Positions 14,735 through 61,545 of a DNA stretch of 64,000 bases are shown one piece after another. Positions within the stretch are counted from its first letter, which is position 1; each line of letters opens with the position of its first letter. This DNA is from Oscillospiraceae bacterium (GTDB lineage Bacteria > Bacillota > Clostridia > Monoglobales > WRAG01): contig WRAG01000007.1 in assembly GCA_009780345.1 (NCBI GenBank), forward strand, positions 1-64,000. The letters run 5' to 3'. The position numbers and the translations under genes were made by a program. Below the pieces are notes generated by a model. That model did not search any database. It saw nothing but the letters and a program-made list of their open reading frames with translations, and had not been told where the DNA came from.

Positions 14735-15243
14735 ACGTTTCACGTTTTCACAGCGAGGTTGCGCCCTGCGGGCGCGGGCTTAAGGCGCAACGCGCCTTAG
14801 ACCGGTTTTGCGCGGTCGCGCGCGGCGAGTCAAGGACCAGTCCTTGACAATCCAGCAAACTTTTGCGCGCCAAAAGTTTGATCAAAAGCACCGCGCTCAT
14901 GCACGTGCTCAAAAAACGAGCACACATGGCGCGGAAGCGAGTGCGATCAGTTCGCCTCTAACCAAATAACATCTCGCGCTTTTAGGCGCGGGTCGGTCTC
15001 GAATGGGCGCGGCGTTTTATCTTGCTAGTCTTTCCGCGAATGCGGTTCGCTAACCCAGCTTTTTCGTCGCCGGCTTTGGCGCAAATCGCCGCTTTTTGGC
15101 GTTTGCGTCCATAGGCGACCGGGATTGGTAAGGGCAGAGCCCTTACCGCCCGTCCGGCAGGACATAAGCCCGCCGCCTCAGCGGCAAAAATTGTTTTTAG
15201 AGCAAAGCTCTAAAAACCTGCGCCATAGGCGCAAACCCTAACA
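14735..15243. repeat. Modular palindromic intergenic mosaic, cluster 2
   Basis: Contains AAACTTTTGCGCGCCAAAAGTTTGATCAAAA, CGCGAATGCGGTTCGCTAACCC, GGCGACCGGGATTGGTAAGGGCAGAGCCCTTACC and TTTTTAGAGCAAAGCTCTAAAAA, shared with other clusters. Confidence 0.85.
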
Positions 15244-28144: not shown

Positions 28145-28722
28145 TTGCGCATGTGTGCGGCTGTTGCCGCAAGGGTTTTAGGGCTTTGGCCTAAAACCCT
28201 TTTTTCAGAGCGAGGCTCTGTGGGCATCGTGTCCTGCCGGACTGGCGATAAGGGCTCTGCCCTTACCAATCCCGGTCGCCTATGGACGCAAACGCAAACT
28301 ACGCGATTTGCGCCAAAGCCGGCGACGAAAAAACCAGATTAGCGAACCGCATTCGCGGAAAGATTAGTTCGTGCGAATGTCCAACCCCATTAGAAATTGC
28401 GGCTTTTGCCGCCGTACATACTTAACTGATACGTAGATGTTTGCACACCTTTATCGCGGCGCGCTTTTAATAGCGCTATAGCGCGTTTGCGCCGCAAGTT
28501 TTACTAAATTTTTTGTGAAAAAATTTTCGTGGCTTGACAAGGGCTACGACTAGCCCTTGTCGCTCTGCGGCAGCCGCCGCAAACGCCCGCAGAGCCTCGC
28601 TCTGAAAAAAGGTTTTTAGGGCAAAGCCCTAAAAACCTGCGCCCGTTGGGCGCAAAAGCCCGCCGCCGCAGGCGGCAAAGGTCTAAGGCGCGTTGCGCCT
28701 TAAGCCCGCGCCCGCAGGGCGC
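28145..28722. repeat. Modular palindromic intergenic mosaic, cluster 3
   Basis: TTTTTAGGGCAAAGCCCTAAAAA, TGCGCCCGTTGGGCGCA, GCCGCCGCAGGCGGC, CTAAGGCGCGTTGCGCCTTA hairpins in series; several modules in opposite orientation to cluster 2. Confidence 0.85.
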
Positions 28723-32104: not shown

Positions 32105-32600
32105 ATCCTCCTTTTCTAGGGCGTTGCCCTAAAACCCTTTTTTCGGGTCCATCCCAAGGGCGTTTGCGCGGGCGCGCGCAGCGCGGCAAGGACCAGTCCT
32201 TGCCAATCCAGCAAACTTTTGCGCGCCAAAAGTTTGATCAAAAGCGCCGCGCTCATGAACACGCTCAAAAACCGAGCGCACATGGCGCGGAAGCAAGTGC
32301 GAACAACTCACCTCTGCCCAAACAATATCTCGCGCTTTTAGGCGCGGGTCGCTCTCGAACGAGCGCGGCGTTATATCTCGCTAATCTTTCCGCGAATGCG
32401 GTTCGCTAACCAATGTTTTTAATGTCGCCGGCTTTGGCGCAAATCGCGCTTTTGGCGTTTGCGACCATAGGCGACCGGGATTGGCAAGGGCAGAGCCCTT
32501 GTCGCCCGTCCGGCAGGACACAATGCTCCAGAGCCTCGCTCTGAATAATGGCTTTTAGGGCAAAGGCCTAAAAGCCTGCGCCCGCAGGCGCAAAATAAGT
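32105..32600. repeat. Modular palindromic intergenic mosaic, cluster 4
   Basis: Shares GACCAGTCCTTG.CAATCCAGCAAACTTTTGCGCGCCAAAAGTTTGATCAAAA...CATGGCGCGGAAGC with clusters 2 and 5. Confidence 0.85.
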
Positions 32601-32742: not shown

Positions 32743-33456
32743 ATGAACGGGAAACCTAAATACAAACGAGTGATGCTGAAAATAAGCGGCGAGGCGCTCG
32801 CCGGAGAAAACGGATTCGGACTGGATTTTAACACGATCAGCGGAATTATCGACACGGTTGTCGAATGCGTAAAACTTGATGTCGAGGTCGCAATCGTCGT
32901 TGGCGGCGGAAATTTTTGGCGTGGGCGGCAAGGTTCCGACATGGACAGAAGCCGCGCCGACCATATGGGAATGCTCGCGACGGTAATCAACTCGCTTGCG
33001 TTACTTGACGCCCTTGAATCCCGCGGAATCGAGGCGCGCGTGCAAACCGCCATCGAAATGCGGCAAATCGCCGAACCCTACATACGTCTAAAGGCAATGA
33101 ATCACCTTAAACATGGGAAAGTAGTAATTTTCGCATGCGGAACCGGAAATCCGTTCTTCTCAACCGACACGGCGGCGGCGCTTCGCGCGGCGGAGATTGA
33201 CGCTGAAGTGATACTTCTTGCGAAGAAGGTAGACGGTGTTTACGACAGCGACCCAAACATAAATCCAAACGCGCGGAAATTCGATAATCTCTCTTACATC
33301 GACGTAATCAACCAGCGCCTCGGCGTTATGGACACCACCGCTACAAGCCTGTGTATGGACAACGACATCCCGATTATGGTGTTCGGGCTAAACGAGCCGA
33401 AAAACATAATCCGCGTAATCATGGGCGAAGATATCGGGACCGTGGTTAAGGGGTAA
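32743..33456 (+). CDS. pyrH: UMP kinase
   Basis: [54 protein letters not shown]. Confidence 0.97.
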
Positions 33457-34312
33457 GGCGCGTTGCGCCTTAGACCTAAAACTTTTGAAAAAAGTTTTGT
33501 CAAAATTCGCGCTCTACGCGCGCAGGCTTTTTAGGGCAAATGCCCTAAAAACCTTTTTGCCGCTAAGGCGGCGTGCGTTGCGCGATCGCGCGCGGCGAGT
33601 CAAGGACCAGTCCTTGACAATCCAGCATTTGAGACTTCGCTTGTGTGATTTTTCACAAGCGGTAGTCGAAAAGTGCAGGGGCGTAAAATTTTGCTTGCAA
33701 AATTAACAGCCATCTGCCAAACTTTTGCGCGTCAAAAGTTTGATCAAAACCGCCGCGCTCATGCACGTGCTTAAAAACCAAGCACACATGGCGTGGAGGC
33801 GAGTGCGAACAACTCGCTCCTACCCCAAAACATCTCGCGCTTTTAGGCGCGGGTCGGTCTCGATCGAAATAGCGTTCGCAAATACTAATCTTTCCCGACT
33901 CGCTTACGCTCGCTGGATAATTCGACTACAGCTTACACAATACGTAAGCTAAGTCTCATTTACCGCGAATGCGGCTTGCTGACCCAGCTTTTTCGTCGCC
34001 GGCTTGGCATAAAGATCTTAGCAGTTTACTGCTTAGAGATTTAGCCCTCCGAAGCGCTTTATGCGAGGAGTTTCATCTATTATCGCCGCTTTTTGCGTTT
34101 GCGTCCATAGGCGACCGGGATTGATAAGGGCAGAGCCCTTATCGCCCGCCCGGTAACGGCAGCCCGCGCTTTAGCGCGTGGCATTACCTTGTGCCGTTTC
34201 CTCGGCGGTTTTCGCCGAGTCAGTGACACACGCCCTCGGGACGGACCCGAATAATGGGTTTTTAGGGCTTTGCCCTAAAAACCTGCGCCCGTTGGGCGCA
34301 ACCCTAACAAAA
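33457..34312. repeat. Modular palindromic intergenic mosaic, cluster 5 (longest, nested)
   Basis: Same modules as clusters 2 and 4, interrupted by TTTGAGACTTCGCTTGTGTGATTTTTCACAAGCGGTAGTCG. Confidence 0.85.
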
Positions 34313-42283: not shown

Positions 42284-42299
42284 ATATGTGCCTCCTTTT

Positions 42300-43105
42300 T
42301 TATAGGGCGTTGCCCTAGAACCTTTTTGCGCCTGCGGGCGCGAGCATTAAACCTTTTTCAGCGAAGTCGCTGTAGCATTTGCGCTTGTCAGCGCAGGACG
42401 ACAAGGGCTTGTCGAAGCCCTTGCGGTAGGTTTCAACCAATCATTCTATGGCAAAACACCTGCCTTGAATTCTTGGGAAGTCCTCAAGGACGAACCGTTA
42501 GCCAAAACAAGTTTTGGACGGTTCAGCCTCAAGCCCCGAAAATTTTTTCACAAAAAATTTAGTAAAACTTGCGGCGGCGGTCAACCGCAACCGTTCAAGC
42601 GGCGGCACAAAACGCCTTGCTTTCACGGGCGGTTTTCACAGGGGTGGCATTAGCCGAATTAAAAAACAAATTCGGATGCCACTCCCCAAACGCGCTATGG
42701 CGCTATTGTGACCGCGCCGCTAAAAAATGTGCAAACATCTACGCATCAGTTAAGTACCTACGGCAGCAAAAGCCGCATGCTCGAATGGAAACGGTGTTCG
42801 CACACACTAATCTTTCCGCGAATGCGGTTCGCTAACCCGGTTTTTTAGTCGCCGCTCGCGGCACAAATCGCGCTTTTTGCGTTTGTGATCGCCAGGCGAC
42901 CGGGATTGGCAAGGGCAGAGCCCTTGTCGCCCGTCCGGTAACGGCAGTCCGCGCATAGCGCGTGGCTTTACATTATGCCGTTTCCTCGGCGGTTTTTGCC
43001 GAATCAGTGACACAATGCCCGCAGAGCCTTGCTCTGAAAAATGGTTTTTAGGGCAAAGCCCTAAAAACTATGCGGCAGTCGCCGCAAATATGCGCTTGTC
43101 AGCGC
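42300..43105. repeat. Modular palindromic intergenic mosaic, cluster 7
   Basis: Shares modules with clusters 1, 2, 4, 5 and 6, plus an inverted copy of the cluster 3/8 module. Confidence 0.85.
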
Positions 43106-45505: not shown

Positions 45506-45533
45506 TTGACAACCTGAAAATTTGTGGTATAAT
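45506..45533 (+). promoter_or_regulatory. Sigma-A promoter of rpmH
   Basis: TTGACA (45506-45511), 16-bp spacer, TATAAT (45528-45533). Confidence 0.85.
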
Positions 45534-45554
45534 AAGTAGTCTGACGCAATTAAG

Positions 45555-45676
45555 TTTGCGTCAAATTGCGTGAGATTTCGTTGAAACAAGAGGCGAAAAT
45601 CCGCAGGCGTACAACGGGTACGTTGAGGAATTTTCGGCTCGCAGATTCGGCGGAAGATTGCGTAATTTCACGCAAA
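45555..45676 (+). ncRNA. Structured 5' leader RNA (copy A) upstream of rpmH
   Basis: 122-nt element, about 80% identical by eye to 59331..59453, with a closing outer stem and compensatory substitutions in two inner stems. Confidence 0.7.
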
Positions 45677-45694
45677 ATTGGAGGTATTATAATT

Positions 45695-45829
45695 ATGAAA
45701 AGAACATATCAACCTAAGAAGCGACAACGTTCGAAAGAGCATGGCTTCAGAAAAAGAATGAGAACTAAAAACGGGCGTAAAATTTTGGCTCGCAGACGGT
45801 TAAGAGGCAGAAAAGTGTTGTCCGCGTAG
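45695..45829 (+). CDS. rpmH: 50S ribosomal protein L34
   Basis: [44 protein letters not shown]. Confidence 0.99.
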
Positions 45830-49964: not shown

Positions 49965-51278
49965 ATGGCAAAAGTAATTCCATTTAAAGGGCTTCGGTAT
50001 AATCTCGATAAAATCGGTGATTTGGCGGCCGTTACCGCGCCGCCGTATGATATTATTCCGCCCGCGAAGCAAGATGAGCTGTACGCGCAAAATGAGTATA
50101 ACGTTATTCGTCTTGAGTATGGCAAAGAACAGGACGGCGATAACGAGAGCAACAATAAATACACCCGTGCGAACGAGTTTTTGCAAAATTGGATTTCAAA
50201 TGATATATTGAAATTCGAGGCAAAGCCTGCGTTTTATATTTACGAGCAAGTGTTTTCGCTTCAACCTGGCGTTATGAAATCGTTTAAAGGCATTATCTCC
50301 AACGTTGAGGTTGCCGATTTTTCGGAGAACGTTGTGTTGCCGCACGAGCAGACGTTGTCCAAAGCAAAATCTGACCGTTTTGATTTAATGACGGCGACCG
50401 ACGCGAATTTTTCGCAAATTTATTCGCTTTATACCGACGAGAGCGGCGGACTTCGCGCAATCATAAACGAGCAGTCCGAGCGCGAGCCCGATGTTTCGTT
50501 TACATCCGACGAGGGGATTTTGCAGAATGTATGGATTATCACCGACGAGAGCGTTAACGCGAGCATTACAAAATTGTTCGCGGATAAGCAATTGTTTATC
50601 GCCGACGGACATCACAGATACGAAACCGCGATAAATTACCGCAACAAAAAGCGTGAGGAAAATCCGAACTACACAGGCGACGAGCCGTTCAACTATGTTA
50701 TGATGATGCTTGTTGATATGGACGACGAGGGGCTTGTTGTGTTCCCGACACATAGGCTTATCAAGGATTTGCCCAACTTTGACGAGGTGAATTTGGTAAG
50801 CATGCTGACTGACAATTTTAATGTATCAAAAATATATGTTACCGATTCGGATATTGCGGGTGTGATTTCCGAAAAAATGGGCAAAACCCTTGACGAGAAG
50901 ATGTTTTCGCTTTACACCGGCAAAAATTATTATTATTTGCTTGAACTTAAAGATATCAATATTATGGACGAACTTTTCCCGAGTATGCCAAAAGAATTGC
51001 GGCATTTGGACGTGACAGTTCTGCACTCGCTTATATTAGAGCAGCTTTTGGGGATTGACAAGGAAAACATGGCGGCGCAGAAGAATTTGACGTATACGCG
51101 CAGTTTGGACGAGGCGATAACTGAAGTTCAGGCGAAGAAATTTCAATGTTCGTTTATTATCAACTCGACGAAAATAAGTGAAATTAAAGATGTTTGCCTT
51201 ATCGGCAAGAGAATGCCGCAAAAATCGACGTATTTTTGGCCGAAACTGGTTACGGGGATAGTGATTAGTAAGTTTTAG
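49965..51278 (+). CDS. DUF1015 family protein
   Basis: VIPFKGLRYNLDKIGDLAAVTAPPYDIIPPAKQDELY, FIADGHHRYETAINYR; ATG at 49965. Confidence 0.95.
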   Translation: MAKVIPFKGLRYNLDKIGDLAAVTAPPYDIIPPAKQDELYAQNEYNVIRLEYGKEQDGDNESNNKYTRANEFLQNWISNDILKFEAKPAFYIYEQVFSLQPGVMKSFKGIISNVEVADFSENVVLPHEQTLSKAKSDRFDLMTATDANFSQIYSLYTDESGGLRAIINEQSEREPDVSFTSDEGILQNVWIITDESVNASITKLFADKQLFIADGHHRYETAINYRNKKREENPNYTGDEPFNYVMMMLVDMDDEGLVVFPTHRLIKDLPNFDEVNLVSMLTDNFNVSKIYVTDSDIAGVISEKMGKTLDEKMFSLYTGKNYYYLLELKDINIMDELFPSMPKELRHLDVTVLHSLILEQLLGIDKENMAAQKNLTYTRSLDEAITEVQAKKFQCSFIINSTKISEIKDVCLIGKRMPQKSTYFWPKLVTGIVISKF

Positions 51279-51872
51279 GGCTTTGCCCTAAAACTTGAAA
51301 ACTTTTTTCAAAAGTTTTATCAAAATTTGCGCCCTGCGGGCGCGGGCTTTTAGGGCGAATGCCCTAAAAACCCATTTGCGACGGCTGCCGCAGAGCGACA
51401 AGGACTTGTCGAAGTCCTTGTCAATCCACGAAAAACTTTTGATGGCAAAAGTTTTACAAAACCGTCGTCACTATGTCCGCGACCCACTCCCAAACCGCGC
51501 GGGTACCCCGCTGGACATGAGGGCGACAAGAGTTAGCGAACCGCGTTCGCGGTAAATGAGACTTAGCTTGTGTCTTGTACAAGCTGTAGTCGAATTATCC
51601 AGCGACCAACGGGAGTCGGGAAAGATTAGCGAGATAAAACGCCGTTTCAATCGAGATTGCGGCTTTTGCCGCCGTAGATACTTGACTGAGAGGCGAGTTG
51701 TATGCGCTATTTTAGCGGCGCGTTTACGATAGCGCCATAGCGCGTGTGCGCCGTAGGTTTGATAAAACTTTTTAAAGTTTTTCGGGGTGTGTCGAGGGTA
51801 TTCGATAATACCCTTGACGAATTTAGCCCGCGCCCGCAGGCGCAAAAGCTCGCCGCTGCAAGCGGCAAAAAA
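51275..51872. repeat. Modular palindromic intergenic mosaic, cluster 8
   Basis: Shares TTTAGGGC.NN.GCCCTAAA, TGCGCCCTGCGGGCGCG, GTTAGCGAACCGCGTTCGCGG and GCGGCTTTTGCCGCCGTAGATACTTGACTGAG modules. Confidence 0.85.
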
Positions 51873-58968: not shown

Positions 58969-59058
58969 ATAAGAGCGGCTAATGGGAATGGTCGTTCCTC
59001 GAAATTCATAGAACTTGTAGGAAACGCCGTGCCGCATTGGTGCGGCTATTTCTTTTTA
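58969..59058 (+). ncRNA. Predicted antisense antitoxin RNA (~90 nt)
   Basis: Starts just after the consensus promoter and ends at terminator GCCGCATTGGTGCGGCTATTTCTTTTT; overlaps the 3' end of the convergent 27-aa ORF. Confidence 0.7.
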
Positions 59059-59129
59059 TGCTTTAGGCATAAGCCGATAATACTAACAATCAACAATAGC
59101 AACTGAAAAAGCTCGCCATATGTAATCAT
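59046..59129 (-). CDS. 27-aa holin-like type I toxin peptide
   Basis: MITYGELFQLLLLIVSIIGLCLKHKKK; 11-nt Shine-Dalgarno AAGGAGGTGAT inside hairpin CCTCC-GTAA-GGAGG. Confidence 0.8.
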   Translation of the reverse strand: MITYGELFQLLLLIVSIIGLCLKHKKK

Positions 59130-59188
59130 TTTGCAGCATCACCTCCTTACGGAGGAATAACCTTGCCGCTCTTAATTTGCCACTTTCC

Positions 59189-59216: not shown

Positions 59217-59330
59217 GTATTTTTCGTTTTGTGCAAGTTGCACAAAAAAATCGTATAATATTGTCTATTTTATTAGTTAAATCGTTTATGATGTTCTGTT
59301 ATAATAATACCTATATCAAAAAATTTTAAA

Positions 59331-59453
59331 TTTGCGTCAAATTGCGTGAGGTTTCGCCTAAACAAGCCTCGAAAAGCCGCAGGCGTATGGGCTATACGTT
59401 GAGGACTTTTCGTAGGCGAAGTTTCGGCGAAAGATTGCGTAATTTCACGCAAA
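59331..59453 (+). ncRNA. Structured 5' leader RNA (copy B) upstream of the EF-G paralog
   Basis: Homologous to 45555..45676; covariation in the CGTAT/ATACG and CGAAAAG/CTTTTCG stems. Confidence 0.7.
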
Positions 59454-59472
59454 TTAACTGGAGGGATTTGGC

Positions 59473-61545
59473 ATGAAGACATATGAAACTTCTCAGATTA
59501 GGAATTTTTGCCTGCTTGGGCAGGGAAATTCGGGGAAAACATTGCTGGCGGAAACCATGTTGTTTACCGCGGGAACAATTGACCGCGTAGGCAAAACCGC
59601 GGACGGCAACACCACCATGGACTTCGACAGCGAAGAAATAAAACGGCAGTTTTCGATTTCTTCCGCCGTTGCCGCATGCGAATGGAAAAATTCGAAATAT
59701 AATATTATCGACGCGCCGGGAGATTTCGATTTCGTCGGCGAAGTGAATCAAGCGGTTAGCGCGGCAGACGCTGCCATTATAGTAATCAGCGGCAAATCCG
59801 GACTTTTGGTCGGCGCGGAAAAGGCGTGGGATTATACCGAGAAGCAGAAGATGCCAAAAATCATTTTTGTCAACAAAGTGGACGAAGAGGGCGTTGACTA
59901 CGTCGCGCTTTTAGAGCAACTGCGCGCGAAATACGGCAAGCGTATCGCGCCGTTCCAAATTCCAATCAGAGAAGGCGACAATATCGTAGGATTTATCAAT
60001 GTCGTTGAAAACGAGGCGCGTCGATTCGAAAAAGGGCACACCGTTACCGCGTCCATTCCTGAAGGAATGGAAACCGAAATCGAGCCTGTTCGTGAAATGA
60101 TAAACGAAGCGGTTGCGGAAAGCAGCGAAGAGTTGATGGAGAAGTTTTTCGCCGGCGAGGCGTTTACGTTGGAAGAAACGTACAGCGCGCTTCGCTCCGG
60201 CGTCGCGGCGGGCGATATTGTTCCGGTTTTATGCGGAAGTTCGGTGAACTCGCTCGGAATTTCGTCGCTTATGAATGCAATCTTCGCGTACTTCCCAACC
60301 TGCGAGGGCAAAACAACGCTCGCAATCGGCAAAGACGGCGCGGAAGTCGCGATTCCTGCGAATTCGTCCGATCCTGTGTCGTTGTTTGTATTTAAAACCG
60401 TTGCCGATCCGTACGTCGGAAAATTATCTTACTTCAAGGTGAATTCGGGCACATTGACGCCGGACACAACTCTTTACAATCCAAATTCCGATTCGAACGA
60501 GAAAATCGGCAAAATATTTATCCTGCAAGGCAAAAAGCAGATTGAAGTTGACAAACTTATGGCGGGCGATATCGGCGCGGTGACTAAACTGTCCGGCACA
60601 AACACCGGCGACACATTGTGCGCGCAAGGAAGTTTTGTAAAATTCCCGGCAATCGCGTTTGACGAACCGAATATGGCGCTTGCGATCGTTCCGAAAGCCA
60701 AGGGCGACGAGGAAAAAATCGGGCAAGGACTTAACAAACTTATGGAAGAAGATAAAACTTTCAAGTTTTACAACAATCCCGAAACGCATCAGCTGATTAT
60801 CATGGGGCTGGGCGATAAGCACCTTGACGTAATTGTAAGCAAACTTAAAAACAAGTTCGGCGTTGACGTTGATTTGACTCCGCCGAGAGTTGCGTACCGT
60901 GAGACGATTCGCAAGAAAACTTCCACCGAATATACGCATAAGAAACAATCGGGCGGAAGCGGACAGTATGCGAAGGTTGTTATCGAGTTCGAGCCGAATC
61001 TTGCTGATCCGAATAGTTCTGAGCTTTTGTTTGAAGAAAAGGTGTTCGGCGGCGCGGTTCCGCGAAACTTCTTCACTGCCGTGGAAAAAGGAATTCAGGA
61101 AAGTATGATAAAAGGTGTATTGGCGGGTTATCCTGTCGTTGGACTTAAAGCGACGTTGACTGACGGAAAGCATCATCCGGTTGACTCAAACGATATGGCG
61201 TTTCAGCTTGCGGCGAGGGGCGCTTATAAAGAAGGATTAGCAAAAGCAAGCCCGGCGCTGCTCGAGCCTATCGGAACTTTGAAAATTTACGTTCCCGAAA
61301 GTTATACCGGCGACATTATCGGCGATATAAACAAGCGGCGCGGGCAAATGATGGGAATGACCCCACAAGCGGACGGACTTACCGAAATTGTCGCGGAAGT
61401 TCCGATGTCTGAAATGCATACATACGCGTCGGATTTGCGTTCTATCACGCAAGGGCGCGGGAAATTCTCCCTTCATTTCGAGCGTTATCAAGACGCGCCG
61501 AGCAATATCGCTGACAAAGTGATGAAGGAAAGTAAAGAAGGATAG
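59473..61545 (+). CDS. Elongation factor G-like GTPase (FusA2-type paralog)
   Basis: GQGNSGKTLLAETMLFTAGTIDRVGKTADGNTTMDFDSEEIKRQFSI, DAPGDFDFVGEV, NKVD; C-terminal EF-G domains IV/V. Confidence 0.92.
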   Translation: MKTYETSQIRNFCLLGQGNSGKTLLAETMLFTAGTIDRVGKTADGNTTMDFDSEEIKRQFSISSAVAACEWKNSKYNIIDAPGDFDFVGEVNQAVSAADAAIIVISGKSGLLVGAEKAWDYTEKQKMPKIIFVNKVDEEGVDYVALLEQLRAKYGKRIAPFQIPIREGDNIVGFINVVENEARRFEKGHTVTASIPEGMETEIEPVREMINEAVAESSEELMEKFFAGEAFTLEETYSALRSGVAAGDIVPVLCGSSVNSLGISSLMNAIFAYFPTCEGKTTLAIGKDGAEVAIPANSSDPVSLFVFKTVADPYVGKLSYFKVNSGTLTPDTTLYNPNSDSNEKIGKIFILQGKKQIEVDKLMAGDIGAVTKLSGTNTGDTLCAQGSFVKFPAIAFDEPNMALAIVPKAKGDEEKIGQGLNKLMEEDKTFKFYNNPETHQLIIMGLGDKHLDVIVSKLKNKFGVDVDLTPPRVAYRETIRKKTSTEYTHKKQSGGSGQYAKVVIEFEPNLADPNSSELLFEEKVFGGAVPRNFFTAVEKGIQESMIKGVLAGYPVVGLKATLTDGKHHPVDSNDMAFQLAARGAYKEGLAKASPALLEPIGTLKIYVPESYTGDIIGDINKRRGQMMGMTPQADGLTEIVAEVPMSEMHTYASDLRSITQGRGKFSLHFERYQDAPSNIADKVMKESKEG

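Follow-up and report, generated by a model that had tools for sequence, protein, structure and literature searches.

Two genes in the window (the whole stretch of DNA analysed, 64,000 nt), rpmH and a gene for an EF-G family protein, are each preceded by a copy of one structured sequence, and this raises the question of what the sequence is. The earlier note took its recurrence at one position and orientation, next to two translation-related genes, as a sign of cis-regulation. We followed the sequence through the rest of the genome and through other genera, and compared it with families already described.

Two hairpins ahead of rpmH and an EF-G paralogue

The features of the two loci, all on the + strand, are as follows.

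45506..45533, +, perfect promoter consensus TTGACA-16-TATAAT (12/12 matches), with 16 nt between it and the rpmH copy
45550..45677, +, second class A copy of the element within the window, sense, 5' of rpmH (alignment, BLAST, fold)
45680..45684, +, Shine-Dalgarno sequence GGAGG of rpmH, 2 nt past the element (sequence)
45695..45829, +, rpmH, encoding bL34 (sequence; TIGR01030)
59297..59305, +, extended -10 promoter-like sequence TGTTATAAT, read directly from the sequence
59326..59454, +, class A hairpin element, the copy from which this study started, sense, 5' of the EF-G family gene (BLAST, covariance search at 142.8 bits, fold)
59377..59405, +, apical core CCGCAGGCGTA..TACGTTGAGGA with the conserved internal loop GNAG/UGA, (nearly) invariant in 22 class A copies
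59461..59466, +, Shine-Dalgarno sequence GGAGGG, 6 nt past the 3' end of the element (sequence)
59473..61545, +, EF-G family gene, 690 aa, FusA2-like paralogue, its ATG 18 nt past the 3' end of the element (NCBIfam NF009381 elongation factor G, 890.9 bits)

The EF-G copy folds as one long hairpin (-63.1 kcal/mol, z -8.3, a stability that none of 200 shuffles reached), and the rpmH copy, which shares ~82% identity with it in alignment, folds at -57.8 kcal/mol (z -7.6). The structured rpmH leader is thus repeated 5' of the EF-G gene in the orientation first described, with limits of 59326-59454 rather than 59331-59453, and both downstream genes are as originally named. The separate conserved 3' hairpin reported at that time (TTTCGGCGAAAGA) is instead the right arm of the single long hairpin, paired with the left arm in the minimum-energy fold. 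The EF-G family protein scores slightly under the cut-off of the EF-G equivalog TIGR00484, and a separate str-operon fusA is present on contig C3 of this genome. We rejected the idea of a leader conserved together with this EF-G gene, as its closest named EF-G relatives (L090-L093, L097) carry no similar upstream hairpin.

Promoter-like sequences lie just upstream of both copies, so that both would form the very 5' end of an mRNA; they are probably transcribed as such, ending beside the Shine-Dalgarno sequence. At the EF-G gene it is the extended -10 that would place the mRNA start just 5' of the hairpin, and a consensus promoter scan of this strand found no full promoter pair. Between alaS and the EF-G element there is also a small hydrophobic ORF (MITYGELFQLLLLIVSIIGLCLKHKKK, ~59050-59170, - strand) with a weak likeness to Hol_Tox (PF16935, 14.3 bits, under the cut-off of 23.3), a possible candidate for a type I toxin.

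Copies across the genome and their placement

BLAST against the whole genome (2.05 Mb in 59 contigs) returned 57 matching regions, and BLAST and covariance searches together gave a catalogue of 68 entries, fragments and interrupted copies included. The copies carry two main interiors on common arms: class A, of ~129 nt with the core CCGCAGGCGTAC..GTACGTTGAGGA, to which both window copies belong, and class B, of ~108 nt with the core GGGAGCGTGTATA..GATACCCGACC. A third, related core (GACGTGTATA..GATACTC) is found in a few copies of ~104 nt. The covariance models R1 and R2 recover 22 intact copies of class A and 28 strong ones of class B, along with divergent or interrupted copies; the models were built partly from these copies, which therefore match by construction, and it is the matches in other genera that serve as an independent test. 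Median pairwise identity is 78% in class A and 80% in class B, so most copies are not recent.

Some element copies are split by another repeat (GGCGGTCAACTGCAT.. and others; C1:32574, C2:11418, C34:16325, C17:35899, C26:13106 and C4:76128), and some of the interrupting repeats are at matching internal positions. Other palindromic repeats (e.g. GGTTTTTAGGGCTTTGCCCTAAAAACC, 13 copies) occur, direct and inverted, in clusters across the window (14760-15220, 28150-28720, 32110-32590, 33450-34300, 42290-43095 and 51270-51840).

Neighbouring genes were predicted with a home-made hexamer caller, which can miss small genes, and the junctions were checked by reading. Copies are sense to the adjoining gene in 32 cases and antisense in 29, and two placements cover nearly all of them. 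A sense copy ends, in 25 out of 26 cases, 12-28 nt short of the start codon, and the Shine-Dalgarno sequence follows its 3' end directly. For antisense copies the reference point is the stop codon of the gene on the opposite strand, and in 27 out of 28 the 3' end falls at -20 to +4 nt relative to it. The 3' side is held more tightly than the 5' side in both groups (P 0.009 for sense, 6e-8 for antisense copies), and in several antisense copies the outer stem takes in the last codons of the gene, with the other arm matching them (e.g. C12:51400 and C35:8308). The sense:antisense ratio differs between the classes (8:17 for A and 23:11 for B, P 0.009): antisense copies predominate in class A and sense copies in class B. 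One class A copy (C43:10361-10491) ends ~3 nt before an apparent tRNA gene, recognized by eye; no other RNA gene was seen at the 3' end of an element.

Ribosomal-protein genes are downstream of 10 of the 32 sense copies (S4, L5, L9, L11, L20, L27, L34, L36, S12 and S16), and antisense copies follow the genes for S10, L3, S17, S19 and S16. The enrichment in the sense set has a P of ~6e-9, a value that assumes a background of 54 ribosomal-protein genes in 1900 and treats copies in the same operon as independent, which they are not. The ribosomal-protein genes and those for IF-3, RsfS, NusG, RbfA, ClpP and the EF-G family protein near copies were identified by NCBIfam. The remaining neighbours, identified by eye, are for the most part common housekeeping genes (aldolase, enolase, SecD, RnfA, CoaD and thymidylate synthase, among others).

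These placements bear directly on the idea of a dedicated cis-regulatory leader, a sense hairpin that binds a ribosomal protein or a ligand and so sets translation. The tight spacing of sense copies to the start codon, the enrichment at ribosomal-protein genes and the strong covariation and conserved apical core described below all speak for it. Against it, about half of the copies are antisense, as are most copies in relatives, most neighbours are not translation genes, and one copy adjoins a tRNA gene. Structure, recurrence, the link to translation genes and the start-codon spacing thus agree with the cis-regulation first proposed, whereas a uniform orientation and a translation-gene context throughout do not hold. 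A genome-wide listing of adjoining genes had been set beforehand as the test of that proposal; ribosomal-protein genes are enriched in it, yet it largely shows the two outcomes named in advance as speaking against cis-regulation, opposite orientation and genes outside translation. A 5' leader dedicated to translation genes does not account for mixed neighbours and for mostly antisense copies in relatives, and ~70 scattered copies docked by the same end at gene starts and stops are not a switch dedicated to two such genes. We regard this explanation as unlikely.

The folded strand and its occurrence in relatives

When folded, the element strand is a single long stem with imperfections, in which a tandem G-A step (AGAU/AGAU) is conserved. 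An apical internal loop reads GNAG/UGA in class A copies and GAG/CGA in class B copies. Conservation is higher at the apex than at the ends of the element, and the outer stems differ between copies with compensation. We aligned six class A copies of this genome with 15 from other genera. Of the cells, 96.6% are paired, and in 27 out of 35 pairs both sides have changed; 139 double-changed cells are observed vs 44 +/- 5 in shuffles, and pairing drops to 35-49% in controls with slid partners.

The fold belongs to one strand. The element strand outfolds its complement in all 61 tested copies of this genome, sense and antisense alike, and G-U cells exceed A-C cells by ~30-40 to 1 overall (87:2 in class A antisense, 57:2 in class A sense and 85:2 in class B sense copies). 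Such an excess on one strand indicates that a folded single strand is under selection. A DNA cruciform would lack this bias, which is seen in every class and orientation, and is ruled out; RNA and single-stranded DNA both fit. The element would work, most likely, as RNA. Antisense copies keep the fold of the element strand while the mRNA carries the complement, which a role in mRNA stability in cis does not predict; these copies may have a role as single-stranded DNA or as antisense RNA.

The copies could also be a family of small RNA genes, each transcribed from its own strand, with the apical loop acting in trans. In favour of this, the element strand is under selection even antisense to rpsG-fusA, where the str-operon copies of relatives (f5) have 42 G-U vs 5 A-C cells. 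However, no conserved promoter was recognized by eye 5' of the antisense copies, whose 5' flanks are AT-rich and without motif, and sense copies leave no room for a terminator ahead of the Shine-Dalgarno sequence, which makes a small RNA family quite improbable.

All comparison genomes listed are from outside the genus and the family of this genome. Within the same order, class A copies are found in three genera (g10, g18 and g19), and the class B model finds one copy in a fourth (G025 of g12). Model R3 adds genus g5, two families of the same class (f52 and f62) and a family of another class of the phylum (f138), with 11 and 12 matches, some of them weak, in two complete genomes. A core related to the apical core of the EF-G copy is present in other families. 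Covariance hits in four further genomes (G018, G050 at C17, G016, and G046 at C14) appear to be palindromes unrelated to the element, either AT-rich or perfect, and are left out of the count.

Most relatives have one or few copies, some relatives have tandem copies, and the sites differ between genera. The copies are mostly antisense, with at least one sense copy (G043, L114). One site recurs: at the rpsG|fusA junction the element is antisense in g5, g18, g19 and one genome of f52 (G336), and class B-like hairpins were seen there by eye in g10 and g12; a survey of the same junction found no element in several others, this genome included. That an antisense copy recurs at this junction in several genera suggests a function beyond mobility. 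In the complete genomes G651 and G515 the element is opposite to the main gene direction in 21 out of 23 cases. We rejected a replication-strand rule here, as both exceptions adjoin head-on genes and follow the gene and not the fork. At two sites in G651 (C1:2656894 and C1:3375536) the element is between convergent genes, and flanking inverted sequence and a T-run lengthen the hairpin so that it resembles an intrinsic terminator.

Strand-specific folding would be expected of REP elements as a single-stranded-DNA substrate, and the element could in the same way be a selfish DNA hairpin, REP-like or HUH-like and mobilised in trans, with any effect as RNA incidental. The fold kept in both orientations to genes, the sites that differ between genera, the tandem copies and the strand bias in the two complete genomes are in line with this. 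The bias, however, follows the gene rather than the replication fork; the apex is conserved above the ends, neither an end of the GTAG type nor an intact Y1 partner was detected, and the rpsG|fusA site is common to several genera. A purely DNA-borne hairpin seems to us a minority possibility.

Comparison with known repeats and a possible role

The whole window had no match in Rfam 15 at the gathering threshold, and the genome copies and relatives, searched at an E-value threshold, gave only sub-threshold hits, plus one tRNA elsewhere in a locus. A phage origin was rejected, since the exact core patterns had no match in IMG/VR viral contigs; the exact class B core pattern also had none in a genome-contig collection, from which near-identical genomes may be absent. 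Our literature search found papers on ERIC, NEMIS, RUP, BOX and stem-loop families, none of them matching the element.

Among known repeats the element is most readily set beside ERIC (also IRU or RU-1; 127 bp, enterobacteria), with which it shares length, a near-palindromic long hairpin and many intergenic copies (PMC2229807). The 68 catalogued entries fit the pattern of many dispersed near-palindromic copies of 100-200 bp that marks ERIC- and MITE-type repeats. ERIC is found within transcribed operons, where its hairpins are reported to alter mRNA stability in an orientation-dependent manner (PMC2229807), and the element would share both traits. Unlike ERIC, the element has stems that vary with compensation around a conserved apex, docks its 3' end at starts and stops, and is common to two classes of another phylum. 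Conserved ends and a clear target-site duplication, as in ERIC- and MITE-type repeats, were not found: direct repeats average 3.72 nt vs 3.44 +/- 0.15 in shuffled pairings, a comparison made across fuzzy boundaries and with no empty site, in which a 2-bp duplication could still go unseen. The flanks showed no target motif.

Like REP or REPIN sequences with RAYT, the element consists of dispersed extragenic hairpins. REPs have a length of 20-40 bp, and a GTAG or CGTC tag is present in most of them (PMC3733652). The element, by contrast, is 108-129 nt and untagged, with no conserved tag in its flanks and no intact Y1 gene found in this genome. A search for the Y1 family gave a single transposase gene, which is broken and whose locus is not among the element copies, and we rejected a transposon of the IS200/REP type. 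NEMIS (Correia) of Neisseria is also a small dispersed element, of 107 or 155 bp, and its RNA hairpin has been proposed to target adjacent mRNAs to RNase III (PMC2229807), but it ends in inverted repeats of 24 bp and duplicates its target site, whereas the ends of our element vary and no duplication was found. With the autoregulatory leaders of ribosomal-protein genes it shares a structured RNA 5' of such genes; it differs in matching no Rfam leader and in occurring as one element at many unrelated genes, often antisense, without the consistent sense orientation 5' of a gene that marks a cis-regulatory leader.

The best reading is an ERIC-like mobile structured element that acts in the 5' UTR at the EF-G gene and rpmH. 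Put more fully, we lean, though short of calling it probable, towards a dispersed, mobile-like element that works as a folded single strand, likeliest RNA, has multiplied in the genome and alters the mRNA at these two genes. We infer that a protein or nuclease acting in trans probably recognizes its apex; new copies would insert, or persist, for the most part where their 3' end directly meets the edge of a gene. At the EF-G gene and rpmH the effect, by analogy with what is reported of ERIC and NEMIS hairpins, would most likely be on mRNA decay or processing and on ribosome access, rather than that of a ligand-sensing switch for translation genes. Computation establishes the family with its fold, strand specificity, distribution and placement, whereas transcription, the recognition partner, mobility and any effect on expression are inferred. 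Somewhat more tentatively, the element may be an undescribed class of conserved structured elements, spread over at least two classes of one phylum, with a folded strand, a GNAG/UGA-type apex and a 3' end that faces a coding region (the Shine-Dalgarno sequence in sense, the stop codon in antisense), a rule unlike that of any known repeat or leader; its ancestral post may be the antisense rpsG|fusA site of the str operon.

A strongly covarying element that is kept across families and concentrated at ribosomal-protein operons is thus absent from Rfam, and its docking rule sets it apart from ERIC, REP and leader RNAs. It raises the question of what reads a hairpin placed at the stop codon of a gene to which it is antisense, and the covariance models and the list of sites make this question testable. 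If the element is mobile, it would be a repeat that reshapes the most highly conserved of bacterial operons; should it be regulatory, it would add a new layer of control on ribosome synthesis.
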